Source: Psococerastis gibbosa (taxonomy: Eukaryota; Arthropoda; Insecta; Psocodea; Psocidae). Taken from it: a stretch of DNA of 64,000 bases. A model generated the notes under the pieces. That model was given only the letters and a program-made list of their open reading frames with translations. It made no database searches and had not been told where the DNA came from. The stretch lies in contig OZ020485.1 of the NCBI GenBank assembly GCA_963971405.1, forward strand, positions 42,839,469 through 42,903,468. Reading direction: 5' to 3'. Shown here piece after piece: positions 6,901-56,096 of this stretch (position 1 is its first letter; the number at the start of each line of letters is the position of its first letter). A program made the translations under genes and the position numbers.

Positions 6901-9900
6901 AGGAGCAGCCTGGACAGACAGTTGGGGTGCCTGGGTTTGTGGCAGGCCTAGGTGCCGCCCATGAGCGCCACGGCCGTCTTCCATGGTATGACCTTGTAAT
7001 GCCATCTGTTAACCTTGCAAGGTAAATTGTAATTATTTACATATACTATTGTAGTATTAAAAGGGCGTCGAATCCAATGGCTGGGTCATGTACACCGTAT
7101 GCAAGCGGAGAGGTCGCCGAAGCTAGTTTTCGAGGTCACTTTCAACCACCCTAGGCGTCCAGGTAGGCCAAGACTATGGTGCCCATTCCATTGACCGGCT
7201 AGGGCTATTTCCAAAAATGGTGACGTGGTAGCAGACATTCAAAACTTAGGTGGCGTTTCCACCGACCTCGCATTGCAGAATTGACGGAAATGTTTGTTTT
7301 CCTCTATGGCATAGTTAAAATTGATCAATGATCATACAGTAAAATCACAAACAAACAAACTGAAATTAAAAAATGGCTTCATGGGATATGTTAATTACAA
7401 ACATTTTAATAGGTTTCTATAAAAAGAAAAACAAACATTTCCGTCAATGTCATTTGCAATCTGCAATGTGAGGTCGGTGGAAACGCTACCTAAGTCTTCA
7501 ATGTCTGCTACCACGTCACCGTTTTTGGAAATAGCCCTAGCCGGTCAATGGAATGGGCGCCTATGGTAGAGAGACCAAGTGCTCGAAGATGTGCACGCCT
7601 CCGGCACCCGAGATTGGAAGCGAGCGGCGGAAGATCGTCCGAGGTGGCGTGGTGTAGTGGCAGCGGCCAAAAGTCCCCCCGGGCTGGACGCGCCAACCTA
7701 AGTCAAGTCAAGTTATTGTAGTATTACCTTCATACTTTTTTCCACCTCAGAGAACTTTATTTTTTGTCTATTTGTCATCTTAGCAAAATATGCAGGCAGT
7801 ATAACCAAATGCTTTATACTTGTGCGAGTCTCTACATGCCATGCATGCGATTGGAGACGTGTCGTAACTCAACACTGGTACTTAACCTACAAAGAAGACT
7901 GAAGAGGCAAATCGGATACATTAATTTAATTGCTAGTATGCGATTAACCTTAAAAAAATTAAACCTACCGTACATTTTTTTTAATTTGTGACCCCTCTTC
8001 GGGAATTAGAATTACCTGTTCCTTATGGAATTTTATTATGCTATGGCTGCAATAAATAAATGGTTACACTAAGAAAAGTTTTTTATTTCTGCAAGTTTAG
8101 ACATTCCAAGTTTGTTGATGTACTATCCTAAGGCGGCTATTCCACCGACTAATTTGCTTCACTAATCGTGGTACCGACGTGGTAGCAGACATCATTAATA
8201 AGTCTCTAGCTGCCATATTTTAAGGAGATTATTATGTAGATACTTAACTTATCTATTATAAATTAAGTTATAATATGGTAGAGACTTAGTAATGATGTCT
8301 GCTACCACGTCGGCACAATGATTAGTGAAGCAAATTGGCAGGTGGAATAGCCGCCTATCTCTGACCTCTCATTAACAGCACCCCCACTACGGGTTTTTTG
8401 TGCAAAACAGATTTTTGCAGGAAATATCGTTCAAAAATATCCGTTAAACTTGCAAAAATGTTCCTCTACATGTGGCCTTTACTAACGTTATAAGTTCTTG
8501 AACTTCTTCCTTGGAACTTCCACACTAATTGTTTTTGTACAAAATACCAAATTCATTAATAGTGGCCAATCTGTGTTTAAAAGAGGTACCTACCTACCTA
8601 TATATTATAGTATTCTGTGGTACCTACTGTATATATCACATATCGAAATTCAAAATGCTCAGAAATTTTTTTTAAGAGTTCTTCGATTGATGTCTCATGA
8701 GTTATTTGATTTTATCCCCTCGGACTGTCTCTTAAATCACAGTTTAGCCTTATCAAAATGCGTGACTTTAATAATTTACAGAAATGGCTTTCAAATTCCG
8801 GAGCAATTAGTTGCTGCAGCATCGTGCATTGTCGAAAATAAGTTTAACGCCCCTCTTGCGGACATATTGGACGGATTAATAGCGGGAAAGAATTTGACTC
8901 TTAGCCGACTAGCCTCTGTTTTAGAACAAATTGCTATTAAGGGCCCATCAGGTTTGTTACTACATTTCTTTCATTACCCTAGAGTCTAGATCTTGCGTTA
9001 GTTGTTTGTTTATCCAGGGTTTAGAGTTAGTTTTAGATTTAAATTGCTTGTGAACCGATGGTTACTTCTCAATTGTAATGAAAAATTGATGCGATAATGT
9101 AGCAATGAATGCTGTTTCGGCAGTGAGCTCATCAATTGAAATTTTACCTCTGAAATTATAATTGATTTTTTTGCTGATTTCAGTTTTTTACAATGGATCT
9201 CTGGCCGAGGAGATAGTTTACACTGTAAAAACAGGTAATGGGAGTATGAGTGCTTCAGATTTGGCCTCCTACAAACCTTCCATAGGAATGTCAATGAGTG
9301 TTAAATTTGGTGACTACAACTTCGTTCTACCGGCATCAACTTTCGGAGGCAGATTTCTCACCAGTTCGATAGAATTTCTGCAGGTATTGTTTCGGTACCT
9401 TTTGTCATTAGTCTATATCATTTAGCCATAATAGTTCACCCGTTAATTAAAACCTTTGTTTTCATTTACCGAAATAAAGTAGTCTACAAGATGACATAAC
9501 TATAATTAATTATTGTTTCAACCGTAGTATCCGTTTAGTATCTGGACGTTGGACATATTATAACCAAAGGGCAACTAACTTTACTTTATGCTGCGTCCAA
9601 AAATCTAATAACACAACCCACCACCGATTTTGGGTGTGAAAGACCATATTAAAACAAAACAGTTGGCTTGTGCTGTTTTAGCTTGATGTTACACACTGAA
9701 GATAGGCTATCATAAAGTAGAAGAAATGTTCCTCTTCATTTTGATACATAGTATGTAGCCGTGGCGAACAGCAATTGACCACAGTTTTGAAACTCCTTTG
9801 ACCTGACATCGTCAGGGACCGTTATTTTTTTTTACAAATCACGTTCAATGACAATGGCCGATATAGTGACGGCTACGTGATGTACATCAAAGCGTAGATG

Positions 9901-19147: not shown

Positions 19148-22100
19148 TTATTGAGTAAGAGCAGCAAGGGCACGAACCAAACTGCCGTCGTGCTCACGTA
19201 GTGATCTTTCTGCCTTAGTTCTTGTAATTTCCAGTTCTCTTACCTGAAAGCAATTTAACATTCAAAAAGTAGTTCTAAGGTTATCATTGAAGGGGTTTTT
19301 ATTGGCGTATGCCCATTGAACCATGTCCCGCCAACGAACCCATCGGGTTTCGAACATTATTAGTATTGTTTCCGAATGAATTTCTAGCCTTTGGCAGACT
19401 GCTTCACTCTTAGATGCCAATCGGCACCGTTTACAAGTGCCAATGGTGAAGCTCAGAGATACACATGGTTACCATTGACACTGTAACAGGCGTTACTTCG
19501 TCAAAATCATGTACGTGAACGAGTCAATCTTAAGGTAACTGCGGGCCTACTATGTCATTTAGCATCAACTAATTCCTGGGGTTAAAAATGTAAACAAAAC
19601 AATTTTGAAATTAAAATTATTTTTTAATACATTTTTAATCCCAGGTTAAAATTACAAATAATCGTCATAGTAGGCTCACTGAAGTAGGTTAACTAACCTT
19701 CACTTACTTACTATTATTATTATTGTTCAAAAAACACATTTTATAGCATTCAGTTGCAGAGAAGCTTCCGCACCAACAGTAGAGCAACTTCACTTGGGCG
19801 ACGACACCGTGGCAAGAGTATGGAAAAGCAAATTTCTAGGAGTATGAATTGACTCAACGTTAAGCTGGAAAGTACATGTAGAAGAAGTAGTAAGGAAAAT
19901 GAGAAGAGGCTGCTTTGCCCTGCGCCAACTGGGTGGGATAATCTCGAAAACGGACCTGCGAATGGTTTACCACGCAATTGTTGAATCACACGTATCATAT
20001 GGCATAGTATGTTGGGGGCAATCAACATGGATGGATAAGGTGTTGAAGCAACAAAAGCGAGCTATAAGAATAATGGCTGGAAAATGTCAGAGACATCCAT
20101 GTCGGCCTCTATTTCAGGAACTCAAAATACTTACCGCTCCAAGTATATATGTACTGCGCAGTGCTACACTGGTTAGAGACCACCTAAATGAGTATCCTGC
20201 AAATAGGGATCGCCACAGTCCCCATAAAAGACATGCCGGAGACCTTTCAGTCACAGCAGCCAGGCTGACAGCCCGACAGCGCAGTCCACGAACCGCAGGC
20301 ATCCGCATATACAACGCTCTACCAGAAGCCATAAAACAGGAGCCTACGGCTAATGCTTTCAAGAAAGCACTAATTAATTTTTTGATGCAACGAAGATTGT
20401 ACAATCTGAAGGAACTTTGAAGCTACCTATATTTATTTATTTATTTATTTTTTATATTAGGACGCTACATGACTGTGCTCCATGTCTGATTATTATTGTT
20501 ATAATAACATGTAACAAAGATGGGCAAATACACTTTGATTGATTGATTGATTGATATTATTTTAAGGTACTTTTACTAGAAATTACTTGCATACTTTGGG
20601 GTCAAAAAATGAGGGATGGTAGAAAACGAATTCTTCGACGTTATAGCCTACATGATTTTTTATAATAGCCTACAGTGCGATAGTTAATAATAATAATCAA
20701 TGTGCAAAATATTTGGCAGTTTACACAAACCCGTGTAAACTTTATTTTCAAACGCGAACTGATACGCTACACGATATACACTGATACGACACCCTTACAT
20801 CAGCACTATAGGCAACAACTATCAGATACGATGTTAATTCTGCCATAGAGGTCAATACGTACCCAGTGGCCATCAGACTGGCTTCCCCCAATAAGGCGGG
20901 GTTCCCACCAACCTCTCATTGCAGAATGCACATACGTTGACGTGGTAGCAGATGTCATTCATAAAGGCGTGGTTTCCACCGAAAAACCTCTCATTGCAGA
21001 ATGCAAATGACATTGATTTTTGTTTTACTCTATGCCATAGTTAGAATTGATCTATGATCATGTAAAATCACAAACAAACAAACTAAAATTAAAAAATGGC
21101 GTCATGGGATATGTTAGGTACAAACATTTTAATAGACTTCTATAAAAAGAAAAATTCAGATTTCCGTCAATGTCGATTGCATTCTGCAATGAGAGGTCGG
21201 TGGAAGCCCCGCCTAACCATCAATAATAAACGCCGTACCATCAAACCAATGATAAACAAATGGCGAACTTCCTCTCGACAAGAGGGATGTTCAATAGACA
21301 ACGAATAGGCAAAACAAGGTTCACCTATGGCCATCTGATGCGTGGCGAATCAGCTCCTCTATGTGGTCACTGCAATGCCTATCTAACAATTGAACCCAGA
21401 TATAACCTACCGCCACCTCACACTCTACCCGATCTACTCGGCAATAGCACCATCGCCGAATCACAATCCGATTTCCTAAATGTATAAACCTTCATACGGG
21501 TACGGAGAATGGCGTATAAGACACAACGCTGAAATCGACGCCGCTCTCAACGGAGAAGACATAGTAAGGTTCATTAAAGCACAACGATTAAGGTGGCTGG
21601 GACACGTTGTAAGGATGTCTGAAGAACGCATGCCACGAAAAATGTACAAAGCAAGCATGACGGGAAGACGACTGCCAGGACGGCCAAGAAACCGCTGGAA
21701 GGACGAGTTAGAGAATGACCTTCGCGAGTTGGGAGTCTCCAGATGGTGGAGCGTTGTGCAAAACCGAGAAGAATGGAGGAGTGTTGTCGAGCAGGCCAAA
21801 GCCCACCAAGGGCTGTAGAGCCGGAAGAAGAAGAAGAAGAAGATAAACCTTCATACACAACTGTAACTTTGAATCAATCATCCCAACAATCAATTCCTTT
21901 ACCCACACCCTCAAGCAAAAAACATAGCAAAACTGTTTTAGACGGTCCCTTGGCAGCCTCGTTAAGTCCAGTGCAGTCCTGATAGCAGTTTGCCAAATCA
22001 TTAACACCACCTATCACAAACCCCCACCTAACGGCGCAAATGCCCGCACGCCTTTAAGTTTCCTCCCAACCAAAACTCGTAAACTTATCCTTTTGTAGTG

Positions 22101-23599: not shown

Positions 23600-25665
23600 C
23601 GTAAGTTACAGGTAATAATTGTGTGCGACAATAAGACTGCATCGTTTATAGTACATTAATTATCCAAAAACCTTAGGCGAAATTATTCACAACTAGAGCC
23701 GTAGCGTTAAAAATTAAACTGGCAAGAACGCAACGGCCAACTATGTCTCTTGGAAATAACATAAATAAAAACTCCGAATTTAATGACTGAAGGAATAATG
23801 AGATGGGGATTAAACATTTTACTGTCTAATCTGATTGATATATTCAACTTATGCAATATAAGCAGCTGCAAATGGTTCGGCTACGTTCACACAATGGTGC
23901 CGTATGTTCGCGGGTACCTACAATAACCCACCCTGAACCGAACACCCATGTCCGGAACAATTCAGGTTTGTTGCTCCTTTGTTCCGTAAAAAAAAAAAAA
24001 TACTTTTGACCGGACAAAAATTTGTGCAGTTTTTTGTTTGCTGAGAGAGATTTTTATTCGGCTTGAGCTGTGCACCCAATTTTGACACCTGCCATCTTCC
24101 GATTTTGGTTTCTTAAAAAAGGCTTTTAAAAAAATCAGGTTGTTATATTGAATTACATAGAGGAAAAATGGATTGATAATTGATATAGGATAAAAATATT
24201 TAAGCACCACACATAGGCCTAGTTACCATTAAAATAATAAAAATCTTACGTGGGTATTCAGTTTAGGGTGTGAGTCACTATTCCACCTAGCTAAAAAGGG
24301 TTTATGAGTCTTCATTGGCATTTATATTATTAGCAGTTAGCAAGAGGCAAGAGCTTGTTATCTGAGACAGGCAGGCGTTTTTTTTACAAGCAAGGTAGCT
24401 AGGTACAGAATTATGGTTACCTATCGTCTTAAAGATAATAATACTGTGCACATATATTTTATTGCTGTTTGTCGTAGCGGCCATAAAGATGAGAGAACCA
24501 TAAAAGAACATTTTGATCGCTAATGGCTATTGTATATTTTACTCCTGGCTCTACAGCTTCTTGGCCTGCTCTACAGTACAATCCACCAGTCATCTCGGTT
24601 TTATAGGCTATACTATAATCAGGGCGTAATATTCTATGATTATTAAAACGTTTCGTAATAAAAACTTACCTAACGCAACAACGTTTAAACAACTTTAAAA
24701 GCCACACCACACCAATATCTTTCTGTTATATTCCTCGCAGCTTTCAAAATGGCGAAATTTACACTGGATCCGGGATCGGGATCATGGTTGTTGTGTACAA
24801 ACCCAGTGTCACTAGTCAAGATGCGATTTTTTTGCAGACTATTCTCCCGCTAAAATTAATGTTTGGTGCCACCTGCCACGTTTTCTTTGATCAGTCAGAG
24901 GGGTAGATTTAATTTATTATTATATTTGCTACAATTATAATATTATACTAGCAGTATTTACTATAGGCTCCATTATAATTACATTATCTATCGTTGGCTG
25001 TGACCAGCCAATAGTTTCATACTTCTTAGGGGTAGCGGTAGGGCTTTAAAGAAGCCTCATTTTTAAATGTGCTAATGTCTATTTTACCAATTTTCTTTTG
25101 TTGGGGGTTTAATTATGTAAATACAATAATGTTTAGTCATCCATTATATTATCTAGATGACGTAGTCGAGGCTAATATGGCATTTTTATGTTGGTGTAAA
25201 AATTTAGACAAGTTTTCCAGAAGCATGGTAATTCGAATTGTAACTGCAGCAGCTGGTAAAACAAAAAAAAAGAAGGCGAATTAAATCAGTAAGGTAATAT
25301 TTTAATTTAGGCATGACAGTAAAAATGTTACCAAGTACCTAACTGTGATTAATTAATTTCCCTTGTATAAGCTATCTCCTATACAATTCAGAACTTGGGA
25401 CTTATGAAGTGAATGGAAGCAGTTTTCTAAAAGTATGGCCTACTATCGCCACTCTAAAACAACTTTTAACTAGGTTGGGAACAGTATTAAATTCTCTCAT
25501 CAAATAGCAATGCAGAATTAACTACAATAATACCTAATTATAATTAATAACTGTTCTAGAACTCCTTAGCACCTAGATAGTAATGTTTCCCTTAAATTCC
25601 ATTAGTAGTATCATAGTAGTAGCATCTCGTACAGTACAACCTAAAACTATACCTAACGTTCAAAA
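23600..25665. other. HYPK upstream intergenic sequence
   Basis: AT-rich and without long ORFs. A 71-codon ORF at 25069-25284 resembles nothing I know. I see no RNA gene or clear repeat. Confidence 0.35.
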
Positions 25666-25848
25666 TTGCTAGCCGTCAATAAATCGGAGTTCCTCCACTA
25701 CGCGCTTTTTGTACAAAATATTTTTTCACAGGAAATATCGTTTGTACAGCCGTCAAAAATATCCGTTACATCGGCAGAAATGTTCCTCTATATGACATGT
25801 CCACCCCCCACCCCTTCATCCATGGTATCCTACATTGTATATCTGCAC
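25666..25848 (+). repeat. Dispersed repeat family D, interrupted by Transib
   Basis: Shares cggagttcct, ggaaatatcgt, gccgtcaaaaatatc and gaaatg.ttcctct with 8383-8710 and 45893-46228. The Transib insertion begins directly after it. Confidence 0.5.
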
Positions 25849-25929
25849 CGTCGCACAGTGGGGTATTTGCCCGATTTAGCTGGCCAAAACTCAGAAAATC
25901 AAGCGATTTTCATGAAACTTGGTGGAAAG

Positions 25930-26185
25930 GTGGATCTTAGGTAGAAAAAAATTACAAAAAAATTTTGTTAAAAAAAATTCAAGATGGCGGCCAAAATCGA
26001 CCAAATTCTATATCTCAGCTTATTATGAATTAATTCAAGCCAAAATTCATATTTAGGTGCATCTTAGGTAGAAAAAAATTACAAAAAATTTTTGTTAAAA
26101 AAAATTCAAGATGGCGGCCAAAATCGGCAAAAGTCTATATCTCAGCTTATTATGGGCTAATTGAGGCCAAAATTCATATTTAGGT
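25930..26185. repeat. 127-bp tandem repeat, two units, inside Transib
   Basis: The unit atcttaggtagaaaaaaatt ... aagatggcggccaaaatcg ... ctatatctcagcttattatg occurs at 25934 and again at 26061. It is subterminal to the left Transib end. Confidence 0.85.
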
Positions 26186-26538
26186 GGAAATATATCATAT
26201 TAGTTGATATGCAAATTTTGACAGCCATAAATAAATTATTTATTTATTAAATAAATAAATAATCAAATATTTGGGTAGTCAAGATCAGCTTATAACCTGA
26301 ATCTAGCCTTTAAATTGGTCAAAATATTTTCGTTCGGTAGCCTATGTAGGCCTAGATATTGATTCATTAAATGCCAAAGGCAAACATTAAGTGGTACAAT
26401 ACAAGCAGGCTAAATACCCCGATAAGCTGGATTTAGGAAATTTAAAACATTAAACATTAAAACAGTGCCGATTTGTATATTGCAAAAAGTAGAGAGATCA
26501 GAGGCAACTTTCTGCTATTGGCTCCCTTTCCCCTTCAG

Positions 26539-29500
26539 TTATTCATCTGATTCTGATGAGCTGGCTGATTCCTCCTCTATAATTAGCATGTTAGTGCTCT
26601 CTTCTGATAATTTTTTGGATGGTCTTCTATGCAGCCGTGTATTGATGTATTCAAGAGACAGCAAGGGGTCTGAAGTTAGAAGCAGTCTGTTTAACACATC
26701 CTCATTTGTGGCTATGCGAGAACATTTTCGCGAATACCCCTTGCGGTACTTGCGGAGGCTTTTGTTCCGTGCTTCCGCTGCCTCCTCTGACAACTGGCCT
26801 AAAATTAAATCGAATAATTAATGAAAAATATATAATTATATAAACTATTGTAATAGGTATATAGAATACAGTACAATCACATCATTGAAAAAGTATAGGT
26901 TAGTAATTAAATTAAATACCAATAGGCAGAAGAGAGCTCTCGACTATTACAGGCCCGTGGACCAACAACTTGTGGAGGGTCGGTGTCATTGGGTACCATT
27001 GATAATTTGTCACGTATAATTCGGCAGTTTCCTTCGTATAAATTCCAAATTTTTCAACATCAATTTTCCTCGTAGAACACAATACCTCGATGATTACTTT
27101 GAGGCGTTGGATTAAGGATAAGTCAAACCCTGGAACAAATAAATAACAAGTTAATATAATATACTAGAGATAAATTGAGCATTTTATATAGGCCTATATA
27201 GCAATGTAATGTGTTTTCAAAAATAAACAGTAGGGTACCTACGTAGTATATGAACAGAGAGGAGGAAAATATTTCTTCATTCGACTCACCTGTTATATCA
27301 TGCGCTTTTTCTGGACTCTCAAAGAATCTTCGTGATGTATTGCCATCGTTGGTATTGCCTGCCCCTGCTTTTGGCACGTCCACAATTAGGCCCAGTTCCG
27401 TTTTGAATCTGCGTTGAATTTCCTTTTTTCTTTCTTTCATTATTCTTTTCCCTTCTACGTCTTTTTTCGGCACCTTCCACTTTTTCAATGGCAGCTTGTA
27501 CGAAATTTTTAAAATGCTTTCCATTAGTCTTATTCTAGCGTGCAAAGTGGATAACCCAAACTTCAGGCTCTCCTCATTTACCTTTCGCGATATCGTCAGA
27601 TCATTGAAAGTGTTCATGTTACCTCCACAAATGTAACATGCCATAGTGGATCTTGTGTCAGTAGCAGCATTACACACCTTTCCGTCAACCATTGTGGGTA
27701 ACATAATTACTTTAATTTTGTATGTCTTATCAAAGACATTCAAAGTTACATTATTGAAACCTGTCAGCGAATCTTCAATATGCTGCATCTCTTCTTGTGT
27801 CCCTTCGGCAGTTTCTTTTTTGAAATGAATTCTTATAGGCCTACACAATCGCGGAGAAGAAGGCAGAGGATTCACCCAGATCGGTAGTCCTGTCTGAGTC
27901 GAGACGAGTTTCAATGGCACCATGGAACTTTGGAAAACTGCTGAATCAGAAGCATTTACTTCGTCCTTGAAGACCTGCTTGTATTCTGCCTGCTGACTCC
28001 CATCACAGCCCCATTTCGAAATTAATGTGAGCTCGCGTTCTTCTGGCATTTCCGGTAAAGCTATCAATAGCCTGTGCGTCGTCAGCTTTAGAAGTTCTTT
28101 TAAGTCCACTTCCGCCTTTGTTTCAGTTATGGTTACAGCTTCTGGAGCCGGGTAGCATTTCCTCTTTTCTCGTTGGACAATACTGTACGAAGGGTACAAT
28201 TTTTTATTTGTGCCTGTGCCTCTAACGATATTATACTGATTTCTAGTTAGATCTGCGTCCACGATCATTCCGAGTGCCTCTTTCGCAGTAAGTGTGTTTT
28301 TCACCAAGCTGCTGTGCCGGTCCTCTTCTATTACCATCTTAATTTTCTTCACTTTTGAAGGAGAACCCATCAAGCCATCCATTACTGAAGCTGCTTGCCT
28401 CTTCCCCTTTCTATATATCTTAGAACGAGCAGCAAGAAGCAGTTCTTGGGAATCAACTTCCTCCACAATTTTTTTCACCCTCCTTCTTTTTGTCCGACCC
28501 GAACTAGAAGCGAAGTCCGCATTTGGCCGTCCCGGCTTTACCTCTGTACCTCCCTCGTGCCATACCAGTTCCAACCACTGGCGGTGTTTTTCTACGAAAC
28601 GATTATCCATATAGTTACAACACTTTCTTCTCTCGTTCAGCTTGGATTTCAATCTAATGAATTTCCCTAATAAAGAACGTGGCACGCTTTCTTTAAAATT
28701 GTTGCATTTTTCGTCGAAATTCGTCCCACTGTTGGTCATTATCTTACAATAAATGTCTTTGTGACTGATTTTGGACGACCAAAATCGCATTTCTGCAAGA
28801 AAAAAATTAATAATTAGTAAACGCCAAGGAAATTTGGGCCTATGTACAATAGAGGCATTGCCACGCCCTCTAGCAGGGTTTACCTATAGCTGACAGCAGA
28901 CAACAGCGCGCCGGGGCGCACTGCGTCTCCACCACTTTAATTAGTTCAACTTCAGTCACACAGATGGCCAACTCATCGTTCTTTTTCCAATAAATAAACA
29001 ATAGGCTATTAATTATGCGATACATTGAAATAATATTTGTTTAGGAAGCGTAATTGCAACATTTAGCCTACATGTGCTGTGATGTAAGCATAAAAGTTAT
29101 ACTCAGTACCTAGTAGGTGAAATGTTTTGCTATTAACTTCCATGCATTATTATTCAATTATAAAATTAAATGTGTGCTTAATTTAGTATTCTACAGTAAA
29201 TACTACCTTCATTTTGGTTTCAGGGTTCATCACTAAAGTATTGAGCCTACATTATCTTACAGGAACACATTACAGTATATCTGCCTACTAATATAATGTA
29301 GGTTGCAGACCAGACTTTCAGTGAATATTGTAGGAAAAGGGGGACGAACGGGGACGAGATTTCTACTAATCCTTCATCTCAATAAGTCAAACTATACACA
29401 GTAATAAGAGATAGCCCGGGATCGGGTGGGGCTCTTGACATATTCCTAGTTTGAAAAGCCAAAAAAATTGCAATTTAGCAAAAGTTGTCACTTTCATCAG

Positions 29501-29582
29501 CAATTTAAACCCAATTAAATAGCATGAAACTAAACAAACATAATATTAAAATGTTCTACTAACCTTCTTTGTCCAAATCCAT
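26539..29582 (-). CDS. RAG1-core-like Transib transposase, intact
   Basis: DDE recombinase that should nick at CACAGTG ends and make hairpins, as RAG1 does. Four exons in phase on the minus strand: 29582-29564, 28792-27290, 27129-26920, 26798-26539; 663 residues, no breaks. Catalytic residues align with mouse RAG1 D600, D708 and E962: D270 in KWGCDGSQQAEY, D376 in TMVDGKVCN and E586 in SEEAAEARNK. D270 to D376 is 106 residues, against 108 in RAG1. PSSPRLCRPIRIHFKKET matches the RAG1 PKPNSELCCKPL region. CYIC (392-395) and the pair H560/H565 in LHKLLVH match the zinc site. NDGNTSRRFF matches MNGNFARKL. A KPGRP motif plus basic KRRR near residue 95 recalls the RAG1 nonamer-binding GGRPR. No RING finger. 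The C-terminal tail is acidic. Confidence 0.93.
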
Positions 29583-29856
29583 AACGGGGTTAAAGTCAAA
29601 CAGAGCTTACAAAATTAAAAATAACACAAATTTGGCTGTGCTGAGTGTTGCGTAAAAAATGCTCACAAAAACAAACAAATAGCCACTTTGGCAACGTAAT
29701 AGCAAAAAAACCGCGTTATATTTTGCCGCCAATCTTTTAAATTAAAAAACTTTGAAGTTTTTTAAATAAAATTAGCCTATATTGATTCAACTTTGTTACA
29801 TTTTGCAAAAATCACTTTTGGCCAGCTAAATCGGGCAAATACCCCACTGTGCGTCG

Positions 29857-30262
29857 TTTCCATTCCTCGTCATTTGTTGGCAGATGTTGTTGATAGTAGC
29901 ATGTAATGCTAATTACCAATAATCCATCGATCACAGTAAAGTTGATTTAGTGGTACCACAAAAACCGTGCAATTAACGATTCCGCATAATTTTAATCAAA
30001 GCACTCCTGAAGGCGTCCAACTTGTCGATCGATCGATCGTGGAGCTTTGGCCACATCTCACTTGAGATCAACATGTACAACTTTCTGGTTCTTCCAATGG
30101 AATTTCTTCAAATTCAAATGCTTCGTTAAGTAAACCGACCTGAAAATAAGATATAGTTAAAAATCGCTTAATTACTGTATTATATGGTAGGCAAGGCCGT
30201 AGCCAAGGGGGGGGGGGGTTCTAAAAAAATCCTGGCTACGGCCTTGATGGTAGGTAGGTATA
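29857..30262. other. Flank right of Transib with a short poly-G hairpin
   Basis: Mostly featureless. At 30189-30247, aaggccgtagcca and its complement enclose a G-run. Confidence 0.4.
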
Positions 30263-31157
30263 CAGGGTGATTCACACCTCCCGTCTACACCCCATATTTC
30301 GGTTATTATGAGGAATTTGGAGATAGGATAAAAATTTTTCGTGTAGGTGACTTTATATAAGACGTGCGCCAGGTATCAATGGAAGCTCTTGAAGCGGTCT
30401 CTCAATTGACATAACAAATTATGAGTCTGGTGGTTTGGGACTAATTAGTTTTGTACCTTAAATGAATATTGACTTTTTGCTTTCCAATTTATACGTAGTA
30501 TAAGGAAAGCTTTGTGATGGTCGAAATTTTCGATTCCGAGATTTCAACGGACTTGAGGTCCCAGGAACCGAAAAAAGTGGTTTTTACGAAATGTCTGTCT
30601 GTCTCTCTGTATGTCTGTCTGTCTGTGCGTCGATTTCCGGGCAAACTACTCGGCCGATTTTGATGAAATTCGGCATGTAGGTTCACAAAAATCATACCTC
30701 GGGAAGATATTTGGGGCCAACTCAATGTCGGGGGGTTTTATTCTCAAAAAATTCCAAAAAAACGTCTAAAAAAATTATTTCCCAAAAACGGCTCCAACGA
30801 TTTCTTTTAAATTCACATATATGTATGTATATATATACGTATATTGTAGTTGTTATTAATGTTGATAAAATGCGGGGGGTCACTTGCCCCTTGATAGTTT
30901 GCTTCTGGGGGTAAAAAAATAAAAATAACTAAATTTTAATGGTAAATTAATAATAAATAATATTTCTGCAAAACCATTCCATCGATGATTTCTACCTTCA
31001 GGCATGTTTTAGGTGTTAAATTGAGTAACGAAACCGGACAGGTTGCTTTCCCAGAAAAGTATTTGGTTTTGTACAAAAAAAATTTTTTTTAAAAAATGAT
31101 GGAAAATTCACGCTCAAATGCATTGGGTGCCCTGCCAGTATTGCTCTGTGGTAATGT

Positions 31158-34100
31158 AGTTAGTTTAGTTTAGCCAACGCCCGTCTGTGGCAGTAGAGCC
31201 ATTTGACGCCGAGCCTCCCAGTATCGTTTTGTTAGATCAGCAGGTAGATGCTTGAGTCTGGAGCAGGTGTGTAGGTGACTTGCGACCATGGTCCCGGAGG
31301 AGCAGAGGGGACACACGTCTGAGTCACCCCGACGAAAGAACCGGCAGAGGTGTGCCTGCAGGTAGTCGTGGCCAGTCTCGAGACGGAACCGGGCGACTGC
31401 TTCACTTCTCTCGAGGTTAGCTGGGATGTGGCCTGGAGTCGCAAGCTTTTCCCATACTTTTCCAGTGCTTAGGTTCTTGAGGATGTTTTTTGAATGTTTT
31501 GAGACAATTGTGTCAATTTGATTCCTTGCCGCCTGGAGGGTTTGGTGGATCTCAGGTTGCTCGGATTCTGCTCCTTTTTTTGCCATTTCATCTGCCTTTT
31601 CATTGCCATCGAGGCCGACGTGGCTTGGGACCCATTGAAGTCGAACATCCCATCCCGTATTGATTAGGTTAGCTATGGTGTTGCGGCAGAGAATAGTGCG
31701 ATGGCAGTCCGTGCTGTTGTTGCTACTGAGGGATCGAATGGCAGCCTGAGAGTCTATTAGGAACACGACCTTGTTTGGTGTCACGTCGAGGGTTTGTATC
31801 TTCTTAGCCGCTTCGATGATTGCACACATTTGGCCATCAAAGTTGCTTGCGTTTTTTCCTACGGCAGAACTTAACTGGAAGAACTTGCAGAAGGATCCAG
31901 CACCAGCAGCATTTGTTTCGGGAATGTAGGATCCGTCAGTGTAGACATGCAGCCAGTCTTGAGATGGGTAGAGTTCGTGGATTGTTTCGATGGCACTTTT
32001 TTTTAGTTCGATGGCGCTTGTCGCTTGTTTATTAGTAGAGAGATTCGTTAGCCACAAATTAACTTTTGGTAAGGCTGAGACGACCGTGGCATAGTTTTGC
32101 AGGGGTGCAGGTCTGGCTACAGGAATCTGGTATTTTCTATGAAGAGCTTCAGCGTGGTCTAGGGGGGTGATTTGGGTTTTCAGTCTCTGAGTTGCCGCTT
32201 TGTAGTTACCCCAATGTTTTCCATCGACTCTCTTAGCTCTCTCCCAAAATTTAAGAGTGCATTTGTCCCTTCTGGCTTCAAGCGGTTCTAGACTGGTTTG
32301 CAGTTGCATTGCCGCAATAGGGCAGGACGTGGCACCCCCAGTAATGGTTCGTAGGGCGTTATTCTGTACAACGTCGTACTTAGTTAGACTGGTATCAGAT
32401 GACAGCGACACAACTTCACTTGCATATTCCATGACTGGGCGTACGTAGGTCTTATAAGCTGTACTCAAGACATCCTGCGTTGCCCCCCATTTCGTTGTTG
32501 TCAGCCGCTTCAAAAGGTTATTACGTTTCTGTGCCTTTTCAGCAGTAGATGTTATGTGACTGTTGTATGAGAGTCTCGAGTCCAAGGTCACGCCAAGATA
32601 TTTGGAGAGTGATGTTTGTTGAAGGTCCACCCCCTTGTATTTTACGTTGAATCTGTTTGCTTTTGTTGACAAGGTAAAGAGTTGTGCGGTTGTTTTCTCC
32701 GTGCTGACTTCCATTTTGTTTTGTTTCGACCATTTTTCTAGTTCTTTGAGGGCTGAGTTGATAGCTTCCTGGAGACGTTTGATGTCCGTGCCGGTTGCCC
32801 ATATAACCACATCGTCAGCGAAGAAAAGGCATTGTATTCCAGGAATTTTATCGATGGCCATTTTGAGATCATTAATCATGACGTTAAAAAGCAAGCAGCT
32901 ATGAACTGCGCCTTGCGCTAGACCTTGTCTCTGCTGTCTGTACTTGGAGATTCTATTTTGGAATTTACAACGTATAAAGCGCTGGGACAGAAAGCTTTTG
33001 ATCCATTCGAGCATCTTGCCTCGTACACCCTCTCGGCGGAGTTTATTCATAAGCATGAGCCGCCATATTTTGTCATATGCAGCTTTAAAATCAACACACA
33101 CAGCTAACGTGGATTGCTTGTGGTGGAAGCCATCTTTGACTGCTTGCGTAAGTTTCACGATTTGATCAATTGTAGACCTATGTTTTCGAAAGCCAGCCTG
33201 ACAATCGCTTATAGCCTCGTTGGATTCCAAAAATTCACACAGTCTGCGTTCTACCATTTTTTCGGCAACCTTACAGCACACGCTGGTGAGTGATATAGGA
33301 CGATAGCTGCTCAGTTGGTTTGCTTGTTTCCCCTTTTTTAAAAGAGGTATAATTTCAGCTTTTCTCCACTGCTGGGGAACTCTTGTATTCCATGTGAGGT
33401 TGATAAGCTTCAAAAAAGTTCGCTTGGCAGAGGCTCCAAGATGGCGGATGAAGTCTGGGAATATTTTGTCAGGTCCTGCAGACTTTCCCTTTTTCAGGGA
33501 TGCAATAGCCAATTCAAGTTCGTCGCTGGAGAGGGGCGCGTCGAAGGTGGGGTGTGACTCTCTAGGAGCTAGGTTAGCTTGGGCAGCCTTCCTTTCTTCT
33601 GATGTGACATGGAGTCTACTGACAGTGGCGTAGTGTTTGCAAAGAGCGTTGGCTATTTGTTCAGGCTTGGTGAGCTTCTTGCCTCCTCTTGAGAGAATTG
33701 GTTCCCAATGCTGGTTTGATTTTTCGTTATTGAGGCTCGATATGTATCTGTGAGCTTTGATCCCATCTTTGCGAAAATCCAACTTTGACACAAAATTTCT
33801 ATAGGAATCCTTCTTCGATTGTATGATGCCGCGCTTGAGGCAGGATTGCTGTTTTCTCAGTTCAACACAGTCTTGCAGGCTTTTTGAAAGTTCAGCTTTG
33901 CGTCTCGCTTTATTTCTGTTGGATTTCAACTTGTTAAGGGCTTTGGTCCAAAATGGTTTAAATTGTTTCACCTGCCCCCTCGGGATACTTGCCTCAGCAG
34001 CAATTAGGATTCCTTTGACAAAGCGTTCGGTGGATTGGTCTGGATTGTCGTCTACAAGGTTTTCTGTTATCACTGCATCAGACTTTTCAGCAAATTTGTT

Positions 34101-34563
34101 CCAGTTCGCTTTCTTGAAATTCCATCGCGTGAGCATAGGTCTTTTTGGTTGGTGGTTTTTACTTTTGATGTTGAGGCACAAGGGTCGGTGCCCCCATCCG
34201 TCCATTGCATCGGCGAGTGTGAGCTCAGTTCTAGCCATCAGGCTGGCGTTCACCAGTGCGAGGTCGGGGGTGCTGGAATGTCCGGAGAAGGAGAGGAAGG
34301 TCGGTTTAGACGGAACGCGAGTCAAGTTTGTTGTATCGAGCAGATTTTCTATGCGTTTTCCGGCTCCGTTGATTGAGCTGTAACCCCAGCGCGTCGAATG
34401 AGCGTTGAAGTCGCCTATAACGATGCTGTTTTGGTGTCGAGTTAAATCAGTAATTGCGTCTACGTTTGGGATATTGTTCGGGGGGTTGTAAAGGCCGATG
34501 ATTTTGAAATGTACGCCGTTCGGCCATATATCTATGCCCACAGCTTCCAATTTATCGTTGATG
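31158..34563 (-). mobile_element. LINE with endonuclease, reverse transcriptase and RNase H, ORF unbroken
   Basis: Flanked by an 11-bp duplication TGTGGTAATGT (31147-31157 and 34564-34574). One reading frame of 1126 codons (34550-31170) covers the end of an EEP endonuclease (IIGLYNPPNN, VIGDFNAHSTRWG), a reverse transcriptase (AGPDKIFPDFIR, YRPISLTSV, FADDVVIW), RNase H (YTDGSYIPET, FLIDSQAAI, WVPSHVGLDGNEKADE) and a Cys/His tail (CPLCSSGTM). The N-terminal half of the endonuclease is missing, so it is 5'-truncated and not autonomous. The 3' end carries short taaac repeats. RNase H points to the I group. Confidence 0.93.
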
Positions 34564-34724
34564 TGTGGTAATGTGTGAATTTACCTTACCTCTAGTGACG
34601 TCAGGTGGGCAACCCCCCCCCCCCGATATCGGAAATGTAGCCATAGGAAAATTATTTACCATAAATTACTCATTTTCTCTATCTACTAATTTTGATAAAT
34701 TGGAAAGCATGTTCGAGTAACCTA

Positions 34725-38022: not shown

Positions 38023-38604
38023 TTACGTTGGACGGATGAATTTCGCATAGCCTACCGCTTTCCTAAGAAAAGCGGAAAACACAATCTTTCCATCATCATT
38101 CAAATGCAACTTATCACGATTATTAAAGAGCTCTTTCTTAATCTGATAGGTTCCATTTGATGAGATCATGAAGGGAATATACGTCCGAGAATATAGAACA
38201 TTGTTTCCGTAGCGCCTACAGAGTTGACAAAGTAAAACATTACTCGTGCGTATTTTCTCTCGCAATTCTTCGTCGAATCTTGGCAAAATCGAGGACACTA
38301 CAATGGAACAGCGCTCAATAACATGGAGCCGGTCCAGCAATTTCTGCATTTCGGCCACAAACTCCTCGGGCGTTTGACGGGTATTGATGTTCCGGGCTCC
38401 AATGTTATTGGTCCCAAAGTGCACAATAACGATCACATACTTTAAACTCGATTCTACCACCATCCGACAAATTTTCATGGTTGTCAATCGATTGAGCTTT
38501 GCGCCACTCCAGGGCACTACTTCAGCGACTCGTCCGTCCAATTTAACCCCACGGACCATAGAGTCCCCCACAACGATTATTCTAGGCTTACACTTCCTCG
38601 CCAT
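38023..38604 (-). CDS. SGNH/GDSL-type hydrolase-like ORF, probably transposon-derived
   Basis: A 193-codon ORF with a lipase/esterase-like SGNH fold signature: block I IIVVGDSMVRGV, block III FGTNNI, block V DKLHLNDDGK holding the Asp-x-x-His pair. There is no signal peptide, so it would act in the cytosol or nucleus. An acceptor-like ctgtttcag stands just before the ATG, so it may be a downstream exon of the THAP ORF 185 bases upstream. Such domains occur in CR1-type LINE ORF1s. Here no reverse transcriptase is adjacent. The substrate is unknown. Confidence 0.65.
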   Translation of the reverse strand: MARKCKPRIIVVGDSMVRGVKLDGRVAEVVPWSGAKLNRLTTMKICRMVVESSLKYVIVIVHFGTNNIGARNINTRQTPEEFVAEMQKLLDRLHVIERCSIVVSSILPRFDEELREKIRTSNVLLCQLCRRYGNNVLYSRTYIPFMISSNGTYQIKKELFNNRDKLHLNDDGKIVFSAFLRKAVGYAKFIRPT

Positions 38605-38788
38605 TGTCTGAAACAGAATGGAAATGCGCTCATTATGATCTTTTTAAACATGTCAGTGTGTTTTAATTTTATGACATGTTAAGCCAAAAGAGACCTTAAA
38701 TGACCTATCTTATTACTTTAAATGGCTGATAAACATAGTAGTTTCCTTACTAACTACTATGTAAAACTTGCCGTCATTCATTGTTAAA

Positions 38789-40042
38789 TCACTTCATCTT
38801 CGCAATAGCATTGTAGGCCCTCGGTGCTAATTTATAAAAAGCAACAGCTAGTGCTTTTTGCTTGTTATTCCATCTTCTGCCCTTGCTTGGTCTGCCTCTG
38901 TTGTGCAGTTCTCCTTCGACAATATGGAATGCTAGAGGAGATAGCTTGTCTTGAAGGGCTTCATTGACTTGTACCTCCAGATCTTTCAATTTATCCTTCA
39001 AACCAGCGGCCTCAGCGCACTTACGTATGTACCCAGTTCGAAAAGCCCGAGCCATTTCTCCAAGCTTAGCCCGTCGTGGGGTAAGGTCTTTCTTCATCAA
39101 TCCCAACTGTAATGGGTTCAGCTTTTTGTTTTCTAATAGGCGACGTCTCTTCGGTGGACTAGGGATGAAAAGTTTACGCTGGGCTTTCAGTTTCGATGTC
39201 TTGCATTGATTGGTATCCATGGATCTAGCTTGCTGTGCGATAACTCCGTCTCCATGGTCATCCGTATAATGTACGGAAAAGTTCTCGCCAGCAGAGGCAA
39301 ACGAATTCTGTTCTTCGGCATTGGAGACTGTCATTGGCGTCCTTTCCATTTCATGTGAAGTTACTTCCCAACCCATAGGTGTGCTCTCATGCTGAACGAG
39401 AACTCCGTCACCTTGGACATCCGTATAACATACGGAATCAGGATCAGAGAAGTTCTCGCCAACAGAGGCGAATGAATGCTGTTCTTCGCCATTGGAGACT
39501 ATCTTCGGCGTCCTTTCCATTTCGCAAGAAGAAACTTCACAATCCATAGCTGTGCGCTGATACTGGGCAATCACCCCATCATCTTCTGCATCCGGTTCGA
39601 GTTGTACTGAGCCAGCAGGAGAAACAGAACTATTGGGAAGGGTATTGGGGCATGATGTGCGAGTAGGCTCTGGGGTTGTACATAAGAATTCATGGGAAAG
39701 AAAAACAGGTGAATTATTTGCTTCACGGCTGCAACTAGCAGGTGGACTTGGATAGGTACGGGAAGACTCATCTGACCCGACTATGAGAATCCTCACAGGC
39801 AAGTTAATTCGGGGAATCGAGCCACGAATCAGCCTTTTCGTAAAGTGGAGATCACGATACTGAGAGTCAGCGAAGTGTCTACCACAAATGGAGGCTCGTT
39901 TGAATTTTTCACCGTAGTTAATCGGTTTCCCTGCCAGCAGCGACCAAACCTCTTTGAGATCTTTATTAGGAGGAAACATATGCATGGATACACCGCGTTT
40001 CGATTTCTGTGAACAGAATTCTACGCAACACCTAAGACTCAT
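38789..40042 (-). CDS. THAP zinc-finger protein, P-element-transposase-like N-terminal half
   Basis: 417 codons. Residues 1-80 form a THAP domain: LRCCVEFC (C-x-x-x-C), EVW Trp, SICGRHF (C-x-x-H) and a closing SIPRI. A long acidic Ser/Glu-rich middle has two related copies of a block around GDGV.(A/V)Q...MERTP. A basic stretch PPKRRRL and a coiled-coil follow. It closes with GRRWNNKQKALAVAFYKLAP and a stop, matching the helix-turn-helix start of THAP9/P-element transposases without the catalytic part. It may be a domesticated DNA-binding fragment or a first exon. Flanking inverted repeats were not found. Confidence 0.75.
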   Translation of the reverse strand: MSLRCCVEFCSQKSKRGVSMHMFPPNKDLKEVWSLLAGKPINYGEKFKRASICGRHFADSQYRDLHFTKRLIRGSIPRINLPVRILIVGSDESSRTYPSPPASCSREANNSPVFLSHEFLCTTPEPTRTSCPNTLPNSSVSPAGSVQLEPDAEDDGVIAQYQRTAMDCEVSSCEMERTPKIVSNGEEQHSFASVGENFSDPDSVCYTDVQGDGVLVQHESTPMGWEVTSHEMERTPMTVSNAEEQNSFASAGENFSVHYTDDHGDGVIAQQARSMDTNQCKTSKLKAQRKLFIPSPPKRRRLLENKKLNPLQLGLMKKDLTPRRAKLGEMARAFRTGYIRKCAEAAGLKDKLKDLEVQVNEALQDKLSPLAFHIVEGELHNRGRPSKGRRWNNKQKALAVAFYKLAPRAYNAIAKMK

Positions 40043-40191
40043 CTCTACCGGTTTTAATAAAATAAATAACTGAAATAGTTGAAAAAAATAAAATACTTAT
40101 CTGTTGTCAATTACTGTCAATATTTTCTCACCAGTTCAAGTGCTCCAGTGTCCAGGTGGCTCCTGCACATAAAAATAGTTTAGTTAGGCCT

Positions 40192-43543: not shown

Positions 43544-46500
43544 CTTCTGTTGGCTGATCATTGTAATAAATGTCTGTTGTCTAACCTGACTTTCCGAGCT
43601 ACTGGCACGAAGAAAACTTGAACTTCCACGAGGAGTGCTGACTACTGATGTGAGTAACGATGTGGCATCTAGCAACAGCATGGTGTTCACGGCTTCTTGG
43701 TACGATGGTGGTTCTTGAGGTAACCCCGGTGATTCTAATTCCACGATTGCCGCCGAAATAGTAGCAACTTGCTGAGAAGATGTCTCACCTACTACCACTT
43801 CTTCGTAAGACGGCGGCTTTTCAGGTTGATATTCGTAGGGCGGCGGTCTGTCTTCGAGTCTTGCTAACACAAATCTATGGAACAATAAAGGTGTCATGTG
43901 ATTTTGGGTTTGTGTTTACTACCAGCAGCCCAAATACATTAATAAATCCCCACAGCTTCTCTCGGCTCACTCATATCAATTATTTGCCTTCTACAATAAA
44001 AATACGTGATTGTGCACATCTACAGGCCTAGAAAGTCATAAGTTAGATTGACCTTCGTATAAAAAATTCTCCTTTGTTCTAGCGAATACTTAACATCCAC
44101 ACTGTTGCAAATGATAGCAATTTTTCTTGTAGATTAATGTACTTCACGTAATATCACATATTTCTTTCGATTCAGGGATCATGTAACACCAGGCTCGAAC
44201 ATTCAGATAACATAGTTATTTAGCAGCAACTCGCGGCTAACCCATAACGTAACATCTGAACCACTTAGGTCATCGCCTTTGCCAGCAGATTACATTATAA
44301 TTTATTCGTTTTATAATTATAAACCTACAAATGGTATTTATTACTTGAATCAGACAGCTACCGTTGCCTAGGTCCTAGGAGACCTTGCAAAGAAATAGAG
44401 TTTGCGGTGTCTCCAGCATTGATGTTTGGTTGGATTCTTATTTTTGGCATCAGCGGGTCGCTAGCTCATTTATTTAATTTTTTCCATGTCATGGAAGTGG
44501 TCAAGTGGTTGGTCGAAGTCAGCCTAATTTTTACTTTTTACCTTCTTTTATTTTTTATGAAAATGTTATGTTACGTATGATAATAATGTGAAAAATATAT
44601 TGTAAATTGGTTAGCTGGTAGAGTAGCCTTTCGGGGCTAAAGCTCGCCTAATATAAAGCCGTTTTTCATTTCATTTCATACGTTCCCAGGCCTAGGGCTA
44701 CAGACTAGACAAGTTTTAATTATTAAGTAACATTTACAATAGTTGTTCCAACCAAAGTTCATACCGAACTGTGAACCAATCCCCTTCTTTTAATGCCTCT
44801 TCTTTCGAAGTTTTGCTATCTTCATGACAATTTGGACCTTGGAGACTGCTACTCTGAAAAAGGGAAGTTGTGCTTTTGCCAAGCCATTGCCTCAGGTTTT
44901 TCAAAATGGTTGTTCTTCATCTGCCGTGAGCCCTCTGTCCTTCTATATCATCCCTCTGATTAGTCCATGCAGAAAGCGGTACTTTTCGTTCCTCATCACA
45001 TGATCAATCTATACATAGTGTAAAACTTATTTTCACTCATTTTATCAATAAATTGTAGTAGCTTCTCCTCCAGCGGGTTACAACTGTTCTATTTCTAACT
45101 CAATTGGTTATGCCTATAGGCGGGTATTCCACATACGTACATCGTCAATGAAAATTATGAAATTGAAGGGCATTTCAATTTTACTCTATGCCATTGTTAA
45201 AATTGATCAATGATCAATTGATCATAGAGTAAAATATTAGAATATTAGAAGTTCTTTGGAAAAATCACAAGCAAACTAAAATTAAAAAATGGCGTCATGG
45301 GATATGACAAGTACAACTATTTTAATTGATTTCTTTAAAAAGAACGCATTTCTGTATACAAATTATAATAAGGTTTAAATAATAAGGCGACGAAGAAAAC
45401 AAATACAATTTCAAGAAACAAATGCAAACAAATTTCAAAAATTTGGCGCTTACGTTTCAATAGAAAATTGTCAATTTTTGAAAAAACATGTGGAATGGCC
45501 GCCATCAATGGAAAATTGAAATGTCCTTCAATTTCATAATTTTCATTGACGATGTACGTATGTGGAATACCCGCCATAGGCTGCATACAATATACGTACC
45601 TTTGGATAGAGTTAAGACTGCGCGTTTCAGACGGGCGCGGCCGTGGACCGGGACCATGACCACAACATCTTGGCCTGATAAACGTTCTGTAGATGGCAAG
45701 AAGAACAGCAACGAACGTGACGCAAAGGGCAATAAGAATGGCGATTTTGGCGGCAGTAATAAAGTCAATGCCATCTTCCCTGAAACAGAGTAGAGAAATT
45801 CAGGTAGTGAAACAGATTATTAATTAACCAATCATTAGTCAGCCACACTTATTCAGGATACACCAATATGGAAGCGACTTCAGCATTAAGAGGAAATCGG
45901 AGTTCCCCCCCCCCCCCCTTACACGTTTTCTGTACAAAGTCGATTTCCACAGGAAATATCGATCGTAAAGCCGTCAAAAATATCAGAAATGCTTCTGTTT
46001 CTTTTTCGATCTATGACACATGGCAATCTCCAACACCAATTGGCCGCAGTTCTTGAACTCCTTCCTCGGCTCTACCACACGTTTCTTGTTCAAATCAAAC
46101 TCAATAATTGTGGCCTATCTGTCTTAGACAGATATCATATCAAAATGCTCAGAAAAAATTACTTCTGTTGTCCTGATAGTTTTGACAGCTTTACGATTGT
46201 GGTTTCATGATATTTTGATGTTTCTTAAGACCAGCTTTTGCTATCTTTCCAAAATTTGGAAGGACGTAGTTAGGTGCCCATTCCATTGACCGGCTAGGGC
46301 TATTTCCAACAACGGTGACGTGGTAGCAGACATTCAAGACTTAGGTGGCGTTTCCATCGACCTCGCATTGCAGAATTGACGGAAATGTTTATTTTCCTTT
46401 ATGCTATAGTTAAAATTGACCAATTATCATACAGTAAAATCACAAACAAACAAACTAAAATTAAAAAATGGCGTCATGGGATATGTTAAGTACAAATATT

Positions 46501-49500
46501 TTAATAGATTTCTATAAAAAGAAAAATTCTAATTTCCGTCAATGTCATTTGCATTCTGCAATGCGAGATCGGTGGAAACGTAACCTAAGTCTTGAATGTC
46601 TGCTACCACGTCACTGTTTTTGGAAATAGCCCTAGCCGGTCAATGGAATGGGCGCCTTAGACCAGCTTTTGCTATCTTTCCAAAATTTGGAAGGACGTAG
46701 TCAACCTCTTTTGAGACTAAGATTATTTCATAGATGTGCCCATTTTTCGGCATATGTGCCATCAATCACACAAATAACATTGTCAAGACTAAATATTGTA
46801 CTTACGAGCATGTATAATCGTCACAGGTGGTACACTCTCGGCTAGGAGCTGAAACATAAAAAGAGAAAGAAAAATAACGACGTAAAGATTAAAAAAAAAT
46901 AGCCGTACGTCTTGTTACGCCATGTCCCATTTCGACTGCCATTACCAGTTAACCCGGATCAATAATTATTCAAAGAACGATTAGAGTATACTGGAATTTA
47001 GCCACATGTAAGTCGTGAAATAACGACTATAACGAACTTTTTTTTTTTTTTATCCAACGTCCGTCCGTGGCAGTTCTGCCATTCGACGTCGAGCCTCCCA
47101 GTATAGACTGATGATGTTCTTCGTTGTTGCTTGGAGTTGGGCACAGTGGTGAAGGTGGTTAGCGTCCATTCTTCCTGCATGACACAGGGGGCAGTTGTCG
47201 TCATCTGCTAGGCCGATTCTGTGGAGATGGGCTTGTAGATAGTCGTGCCCTGTCAGAGTGCGGAATAGGGCCACAGATGCGTGCCGCTCTAGGTTACGCG
47301 GTATTGCTCTATCTGCCGCTAAGCTCGCCCATTGCTTTCCTTCGCTTTCGTTCTTCAACCGACTTGAAGTCTGGCGCGAGATAGTGATGTCAATGTGGTT
47401 GCGGGCGGCTCTCAAGGATTGGGGCTGAATGGGTTGCGGCTCCGCAGCTCCTTGCTTTGCCAGCTCGTCGGCCATGTCATTTCCCTTGACTCCGACATGG
47501 CTTGGGATCCACTGGAGCCATACGGTCCAACCGACGGATATCAGGTCAGTGAGCGACGTGCGGCATTGTATTGTTCTTTGACAGTCGGTCGGAGTATTTT
47601 TGCTTAGTGCTTGGATTGCAGATTGGGAGTCAATGAAGAATACAGCTCGTGTAAGTGGCGTATTTGAGTTCCGTAGGCAATGAACAGCTTCTTCTACGGC
47701 CCATATTTCTCCGTCGAAATTACTGGAGTATTTTCCCACTGCAATGTGTTTTTCGAATAGACTTGAGTATACTCCAGCCCCTGTGGAGCTCGTTTCAGGT
47801 ATGTATGATCCATCTGTATATATGTGGACCCATTCGTGCGGTGGATAATGAAGGTTAATGGTTTCTAATGCGGCCTTTTGTAGTTCAATTGGGTTGGTCA
47901 TAGCTTTCGTCGTGGTCAAACTGTGCAGCGTCGTTCTTGAGTATGGCAGCGTAACAGCAGAGGTCGTGTAGAGAGATAGAGGGGCAGGTTCGCCGAGCTG
48001 CAGGTTGTACTTTTCGATTAGCGTTTGGGCATGTGTCAAGGGGGTGTTCTGGGTTCTTAGGCGAAGGCTTGCTTTGGAGTATGAATTCCAGTGCCTTGTG
48101 TCCACTCTCTTAGCTCGCTCCCAGTACTTCAGATTCAGTTTATCACGTCTTGGTTCTAGTGGTTCGATTCCTGTCTGCAACTGCATTGCGGCTATCGGTG
48201 TCGACTTGGCCCCTCCGGTTATAGTTCGTAGAGCATTATTCTGGACGGTATCTAGCCTCGTTAGGTTCGTGTCGGAGGCCAAGGCTATCACTTCAGTTCC
48301 ATATTCCATCGCTGGCCTGACGTAGGTTTTATATGTTGTTGCCAAGACGTCTTGTGTTGCTCCCCATGCAGTTGCTGCGAGCCGTTTCAGTAGGTTGTTA
48401 CGCTTTTGAGATTTTTCAGCAGCTGTAGAATATGGTCTTTCCATGTTAGTTTTGTGTCCAGTGTCATTCCCAGGTACTTCGTTGTAGTAACTTGTACAAG
48501 AGGAATTTCTTTATATTTTAGTTGGACTGCGTATCTCCTGGTGCTCATTGTAAATAGTTGTGTAACAGTTTTCTCTGTGTTAATTATCATCTTGTTCGTA
48601 TCTGCCCATTTTTCTATGTTTTTCAGGGTTGTGTTAAGTGTGAATTCTAGACCTTGGATGTGGCTGCTGGTGGCCCATATAACTATGTCGTCGGCAAACA
48701 GTAGGCACGATACTCCTGGGGTTTTCTCGACAGCTTCTATGAAGTCGTTGATCATTATATTAAATAATAAGCAACTTATGACCGCGCCTTGTGGTAGACC
48801 TTGGCGCTGTTGTCTGTAGAAGGAGGCTACATTCTTAAAGTTGCATCTTATCAGTCGTTGCGATAAGAAATTTTTTATCCAGCGATACATGTTCCCTACG
48901 ATGCCTAGAGATTTCATTTTCTTAATGAGCATTGGGCGTAGCACTTTGTCGTAGGCAGCTTTGAAATCGATGAGTACTGCCAATGTTGATTGTTTCTTGT
49001 GGAAGCCGTCCTTCACTGCTTGAGTGAATTTGACCACTTGATCTATCGTGGAACGATTTTTCCGGAATTCTGCTTGGTGGGCACTAAGGAGCTCGTTGCT
49101 TTCGAGGTATTCTCTTAGTCTTTTCTCTACCATTTTTTCAGCCACCTTACAGGAAACGCTGGTGAGGGAGATAGGTCTGTAGCTTTCTGGTTCAGTAGCT
49201 GCTTTGCCCTTTTTTAACAGTGGTGTTATTGTTGCCTTCTTCCAGGAGTGAGGTATAGTTCCTTCCCACGTGGCGTTTACAAGGTCTAGGAAGGTTTTAG
49301 TCGCTTCGGTACCAAGGTTGCGGATGAATTCTGGGAATATCTCATCTGGTCCTGCCGATTTCCCTTTCTTTAAGGTTGAGATAGCTGCCTCTAGTTCTTC
49401 GTAGGTAAATTTTGTGTACATGGTTTTAAACTGGGCTTTCGTGGGGCAAGTGGCTGTTGGTCGAACTTGGAGGTTTCTCCTTTCAGCACGTGTGAGGTGG

Positions 49501-55707: not shown

Positions 55708-56096
55708 GGCGCCGATTCCACCGACCGGCTAGGGCTAAATACAAAAACGGTGACGTGGTAGCAGCCATTCAAGACTTAGGCGGGGTTTCCACCGACCTCG
55801 CATTGCAGAATGCAAATGACATTGACGGAAATGTTTGTTTTACTCTATGCCATAGTTAAAATTGATCAATGATCATAGAGTAAAATCATAAACAAACTAA
55901 AATTAAAAAATGGCGTCATGGGATATGTTAATTACAAACATTTAGATTTCTATAAAAAGAAAAACAAACATTTTTCCGTGAATGTAATTTGCATTCTGCA
56001 ATGTGAGGTCGGTGGAAACCCCGCCTAAGTCTTGAATGTCTGCTAGCACGTCACCGTTTTTGTATTTAGCCCTAGCCGGTCGGTGGAATCCCCACC
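55708..56096. mobile_element. Two-layer composite MITE, copy 4
   Basis: Outer termini GGCGCCGATTCCACCGACCG and GGTCGGTGGAATCCCCACC, TAA on both sides; inner MITE 55779-56025 with ends GGCGGGGTTTCCACCGACCT. The best-preserved inner ends. Confidence 0.85.

Follow-up and report, generated by a model that had tools for sequence, protein, structure and literature searches.

A complete and probably recently inserted Transib transposon in the genome of Psococerastis gibbosa

The window analysed here, a stretch of 64,000 nucleotides of Psococerastis gibbosa DNA, contains at 25854–29851 a complete Transib element of 3,998 bp, with no lesion seen in its ends, reading frame or splice sites. We put the probability that it is a complete, autonomous DNA transposon of the Transib superfamily that inserted fairly recently at about 0.95. 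One copy is seen within the 64-kb window. The element adds to a known kind and gives no basis for a new one, because full-length, spreading Transibs are already documented, as reported for Transib1 of Drosophila (PMC12230796).

Termini and target site

The element lies between two plus-strand copies of the 5-bp sequence CGTCG (25849–25853 and 29852–29856). It is bounded by 36-bp terminal inverted repeats (TIRs), the left at 25854–25889 on the plus strand and the right at 29816–29851 on the minus strand, which are identical at 36 of 36 positions and diverge from position 37 onward. A preliminary description of this DNA had called both the duplication and the inverted ends perfect, and they are. 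The Transib target motif is given as CGNCG (PMC4735498), and the CGTCG on both flanks fits a 5-bp GC-rich site of this type. When the target duplication is counted in, the inverted pair reaches 41 nt at 98%, because CGTCG is nearly palindromic. As expected of a Transib, both TIRs open with an RSS-like CAC heptamer, CACAGTG (25854–25860 and 29845–29851), which we take to be the consensus RSS heptamer.

No CACAGTG or CACNGTG starts were found in 25,000–31,000 beyond the two ends, and the 18-base start of the TIR, with up to 3 mismatches allowed, matches the 64-kb window at those two ends alone (0.05 matches expected). A query of 12 TIR bases, at up to 2 mismatches, matches the window more often than expected (12 matches against 4.1): two are the ends, one is an internal site near 26408–26432 and the rest are scattered. 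With a 14-base piece there is no such excess (6 matches against 3.8 expected). The internal site had been noticed by eye as TIR-like, and its score is reached by 102 of 300 shuffles. As this score and the 14-base count are both unremarkable, it was dropped as a feature. An empty paralogous site was sought through the flanking repeat at 25681–25794, which has copies near 8381 and 45894, and none was found, because the similarity of these copies ends short of the insertion point. Nor did the window contain further Transib remnants detectable by tblastn, all matches outside the gene having E values of 0.23 or worse.

The consensus of the RSS nonamer is ACAAAAACC. Weak nonamer-like stretches occur at 25883–25892 on the plus strand in the left end (6 of 9 positions) and at 29813–29822 on the minus strand in the right end (5 of 9), each 22 or 23 bp past the heptamer, these two spacers being tied as the best of the 17 scored per end. 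An A-rich nonamer-like element has been described at 20–22 bp in symmetric Transibs and in a 12/23 arrangement in asymmetric ones, and symmetric TIRs with 20–22-bp spacers are known for some Transibs (PMC8355894).

The 3′ non-coding part of the element holds two tandem 127-bp units (25928–26181) that are 92% alike, differing at 10 of 127 positions, and that each contain a perfect AAGATGGCGGC. This sequence, presumably a YY1-like motif, has 6 matches in the window at up to one mismatch against 0.62 expected, two of them in the 127-bp units, and a literature search pairing Transib with it found no paper.

Elsewhere in the window, two related non-LTR retrotransposon bodies lie on the minus strand, one (31170–34580) encoding endonuclease, reverse transcriptase and RNase H within a single 1136-residue frame and the other (47050–50267) encoding reverse transcriptase and RNase H by two overlapping frames. 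At 38023–40096, also on the minus strand, a THAP-domain frame (38789–40096) sits beside a GDSL/SGNH-like frame (38023–38643; Pfam under cut-off), and the two are perhaps parts of another transposon. Members of a repeat family of about 325–390 bp match one another at 6251–6596, 7178–7562, 20892–21216, 46273–46657 and 55705–56089, several of them on both strands, like foldback or MITE-like elements. Two tRNA matches (60753–60943 and 61958–62153, one typed as tRNA-Thr) are embedded in repeated sequence that is longer than the tRNA, which suggests a SINE derived from a tRNA. A 169-residue frame at 56473–56982 on the plus strand has no Pfam match; by eye it is presumably like the GIY-YIG nuclease of a Penelope-like element.

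The transposase gene and its relatives

The transposase gene is on the minus strand, where four predicted exons join in phase into 663 codons and a stop, with no internal stop. Recomputing the joins returned the unbroken 663-residue protein of the preliminary description, and its translation has D270, D376, E586, H560, H565 and the motif NDGNTSRRF at the positions given there. The coding part of exon 1 (29564–29582; 19 nt with the ATG) is placed by frame and splice signals only and, with intron 1 (28793–29563; 771 bp), is the least certain. Exon 2 (27290–28792) encodes a GRP region that is possibly NBD-like, D270, D376, C392/C395 and NDGNTSRRF, exon 3 (26920–27129) encodes the zinc pair H560/H565, and exon 4 (26539–26798) encodes the catalytic E586 and the stop codon. 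Intron 2 (27130–27289; 160 bp) and intron 3 (26799–26919; 121 bp) are, like intron 1, predicted GT...AG introns. Measured from stop to stop, the element's longest frame has 586 aa, compared with 184 for the longest in 300 single-base shuffles.

A phmmer search of the 663-aa protein against the PDB returned 7 distinct sequences at E up to 1. One is the HzTransib transposase of Helicoverpa zea (PDB 6pqn and relatives), which matches query residues 175–656 at E 8.3e-116, with 202 of 470 aligned residues identical. The alignment crosses the exon 2/3 (ITG/FD) and exon 3/4 (PIG/QL) junctions without a gap and so supports both. Because the match begins only at residue 175, exon 1, which contributes 7 residues, is without homology support and is the weakest part of the predicted gene model; M8 in exon 2 could be an alternative translation start.

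D270, D376 and E586 align with HzTransib chain residues 109, 208 and 419, which a constant offset of 17 turns into D126, D225 and E436, the published catalytic triad of HzTransib (PMC6941560). The comparison with HzTransib that had been proposed for this protein therefore places its triad on the known one, and with it the protein has what defines the Transib superfamily, homology to a known Transib transposase with an aligned DDE triad. Among the zinc residues, C392 falls on HzTransib C224 and H560/H565 on H392/H397, while C395 falls on C227 within the same ungapped alignment piece as C392. The two proteins, which were set side by side by protein sequence only, the gene here having three predicted introns, thus share the DDE triad, the CxxC, the H-x4-H and an NDGNT(A/S)RRF motif. 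They differ at the N terminus, where the PDB chain has about 166 fewer residues.

Direct similarity to RAG1 is much weaker. Amphioxus RAG1L matches at E 3e-5 and five vertebrate RAG1 sequences match weakly at E 0.0018–0.0057 in the same search, and the Pfam RAG1 model scores 19.3 bits, under its cut-off of 25. The score of the RAG1 match comes from the residues around E586 and the histidine pair alone. The vertebrate RAG1 core and amphioxus RAG1L share with the protein a distant homology near E962 and the ZnH2 histidines. The preliminary description had equated D270, D376 and E586 with D600, D708 and E962, which we take to be the RAG1 residue numbers. For E586 this holds, as the printed alignment sets it opposite the glutamate of NESGNK in RAG1. 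D270 is weakly placed: it faces the aspartate of RAG1 CDG only within a stretch worth 2.7 bits in zebrafish RAG1 (0.6 bits in RAG1L), which is not significant alone, and D376 can be placed against RAG1 through HzTransib only. In a weak printed stretch RAG1 E649 is opposite a P of the protein here, and RAG1 R848 is presumably opposite a T. The label 'RAG1-core-like' consequently fits at a remove, through the strong HzTransib match, the direct RAG1 match being weak. Single-protein scans, with a reach of close relatives, confirmed no relative in viral (7 pattern matches) or prokaryote (37) contigs.

About 166 residues precede the part of the protein covered by the solved HzTransib chain, and from the triad offset of 17 we infer that full-length HzTransib is likewise without most of them. 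This N-terminal region has GRP at positions 94–96, then a basic stretch and then an LLLAARSK...MDGLMGS segment that by eye resembles the mouse RAG1 NBD. A local alignment to that domain scores 40, a borderline value equalled by 44 of 2000 shuffles, and neither residues 1–208 against the PDB nor residues 1–157 against Pfam gave a match at E 10, so the likeness is suggestive. A structure prediction for exon 2 without an alignment had a mean pLDDT of 34 and was disregarded. GRP-type NBDs are reported for both Transib subgroups (PMC9435367), and the GRP region here is possibly NBD-like.

Classification, age and alternative readings

Judged by its sequence, the element is a Transib, because no RAG2-like gene, RAG1-type zinc N terminus or RAGL-type tail was found. 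The Cx2Cx3GHx4C motif, reported as the zinc tail CTT1 (PMC7204232), is absent from the protein. Its sole CxxC is at 392, which argues against a RAG1-type RING or zinc N terminus. For a RAG2-like or cargo gene, we sent to Pfam 10 other element frames (52–131 aa) of the 80 listed for 25700–30000, a list that includes the transposase exons; none of the 10 has a match at E 0.1, the frames left out being shorter or in some cases similar in length (two of them, with 95 and 85 aa, run across the left end), and a RAG2L broken up over very short exons would escape such a frame-based search. RAG2 was also not found among the long frames of the window (15 of at least 150 aa listed, and 9 window frames besides the transposase scanned). 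What the exons and the two short introns leave free is a left part of 685 bp, the 771 bp of intron 1 and a right part of 269 bp, scant space for a second gene. Within the frames examined, the element therefore has the single transposase gene without RAG2L of a Transib, and the convergent RAG1L–RAG2L pair of a RAGL or ProtoRAG transposon was not found in the element or the long window frames. Together with the HzTransib match at E 8e-116 and the aligned triad, this agrees with the earlier call of a Transib and not a ProtoRAG.

The protein differs from RAG1 and RAG1L in having no RAG2 partner, RING or CTT1. The span from C395 to H560 is 165 residues, the same as from C227 to H392 in HzTransib; the corresponding span in mouse RAG1 is about 207 residues. 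By this length only, the RAG2-binding α11–α12 region is judged absent. Subgroup I Transibs are described as having asymmetric TIRs, CTT1 and the α11–α12 region, and Subgroup II Transibs as having symmetric or asymmetric TIRs and neither CTT1 nor α11–α12 (PMC9435367). With no CTT1, a stretch from CxxC to H-x4-H as short as that of HzTransib, the only Transib sequence compared, and symmetric TIRs, which that description permits in Subgroup II, the element fits Subgroup II, from which no difference was seen in these features.

The undamaged gene, TIRs and target-site duplication (TSD) indicate that the insertion is probably recent, as had been claimed, unless selection maintained the gene. Of the 5,967 single-base changes that the coding region allows, 308 would create a stop. 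Under neutral decay the probability of an intact frame would be about 0.04 at 1% divergence, assuming 0.1 indel per substitution, and about 0.05 at 3% divergence for stops alone; taken without the gene, the TIRs and TSD date the insertion less well (P 0.08 at 3%). Under these assumptions, this suggests a neutral divergence since insertion of less than about 1–3%. The copy may be active. A recent invader among full-length Transibs is Transib1, whose spread in Drosophila melanogaster took place from 2013 to 2016; set side by side by description, it measures 3,030 bp against 3,998 bp here (PMC12230796).

Three other readings can be weighed against that of a complete Transib transposon. A RAGL or ProtoRAG transposon that had lost its RAG2L could account for the E586/H-x4-H region shared with RAG1L and RAG1 and for the RSS-like heptamer, and an origin of Transibs through RAG2L loss has already been proposed (PMC7204232). 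We consider it extremely improbable here, given the gulf between the HzTransib match (8e-116) and that to amphioxus RAG1L (3e-5), the lack of the Cx2Cx3GHx4C tail and of a RING-type N terminus, and the failure to find a RAG2-like frame in those examined in the element and window. The locus might instead hold a Transib gene that has decayed or been domesticated by the host, and be no mobile element. This is in keeping with the single copy in view, and is very unlikely in the light of two intact TIRs, an intact TSD and an intact coding frame; domesticated genes usually lose their ends.

There is a more substantial chance, about one that we would give to a serious but less favoured option, that the transposon is as described and silent, because it is not transcribed, is spliced wrongly or is silenced by the host. 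With a putative exon 1 and a putative promoter there is room for such silence, and the frame, splice sites and ends bear no lesion that would produce it. This reading overlaps that of a complete, fairly recently inserted Transib, which makes no claim of present activity.

Proposed mechanism and significance

By analogy with HzTransib and RAG, a transposase dimer would bind both ends and nick at the edge of CACAGTG, forming hairpins on the flanking DNA and leaving blunt transposon ends, as reported for HzTransib, whose cleavage closes the flanking DNA in a hairpin and cuts the transposon end blunt (PMC6941560). Joining of these ends to a GC-rich CGNCG target at positions 5 bp apart would produce the observed CGTCG duplication. 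A RAG2-like partner would be unnecessary, Transib being reported to function without RAG2 (PMC11844651).

It is doubtful, on the features read from this one copy, that the element is both mobile today and equipped with an NBD-like domain, apparently missing from HzTransib, and symmetric RSS-like ends with 22/23 spacers. Were this true, it would provide a native, RAG2-free test-bed for heptamer-plus-nonamer recognition before the 12/23 rule. Transibs are related to the RAG recombinase and lack RAG2. Being complete and having exact RSS-type heptamers, the copy described here could join HzTransib as a second experimental Transib. While leaving current views unchanged, its main use would be in asking what the extra N-terminal region does.
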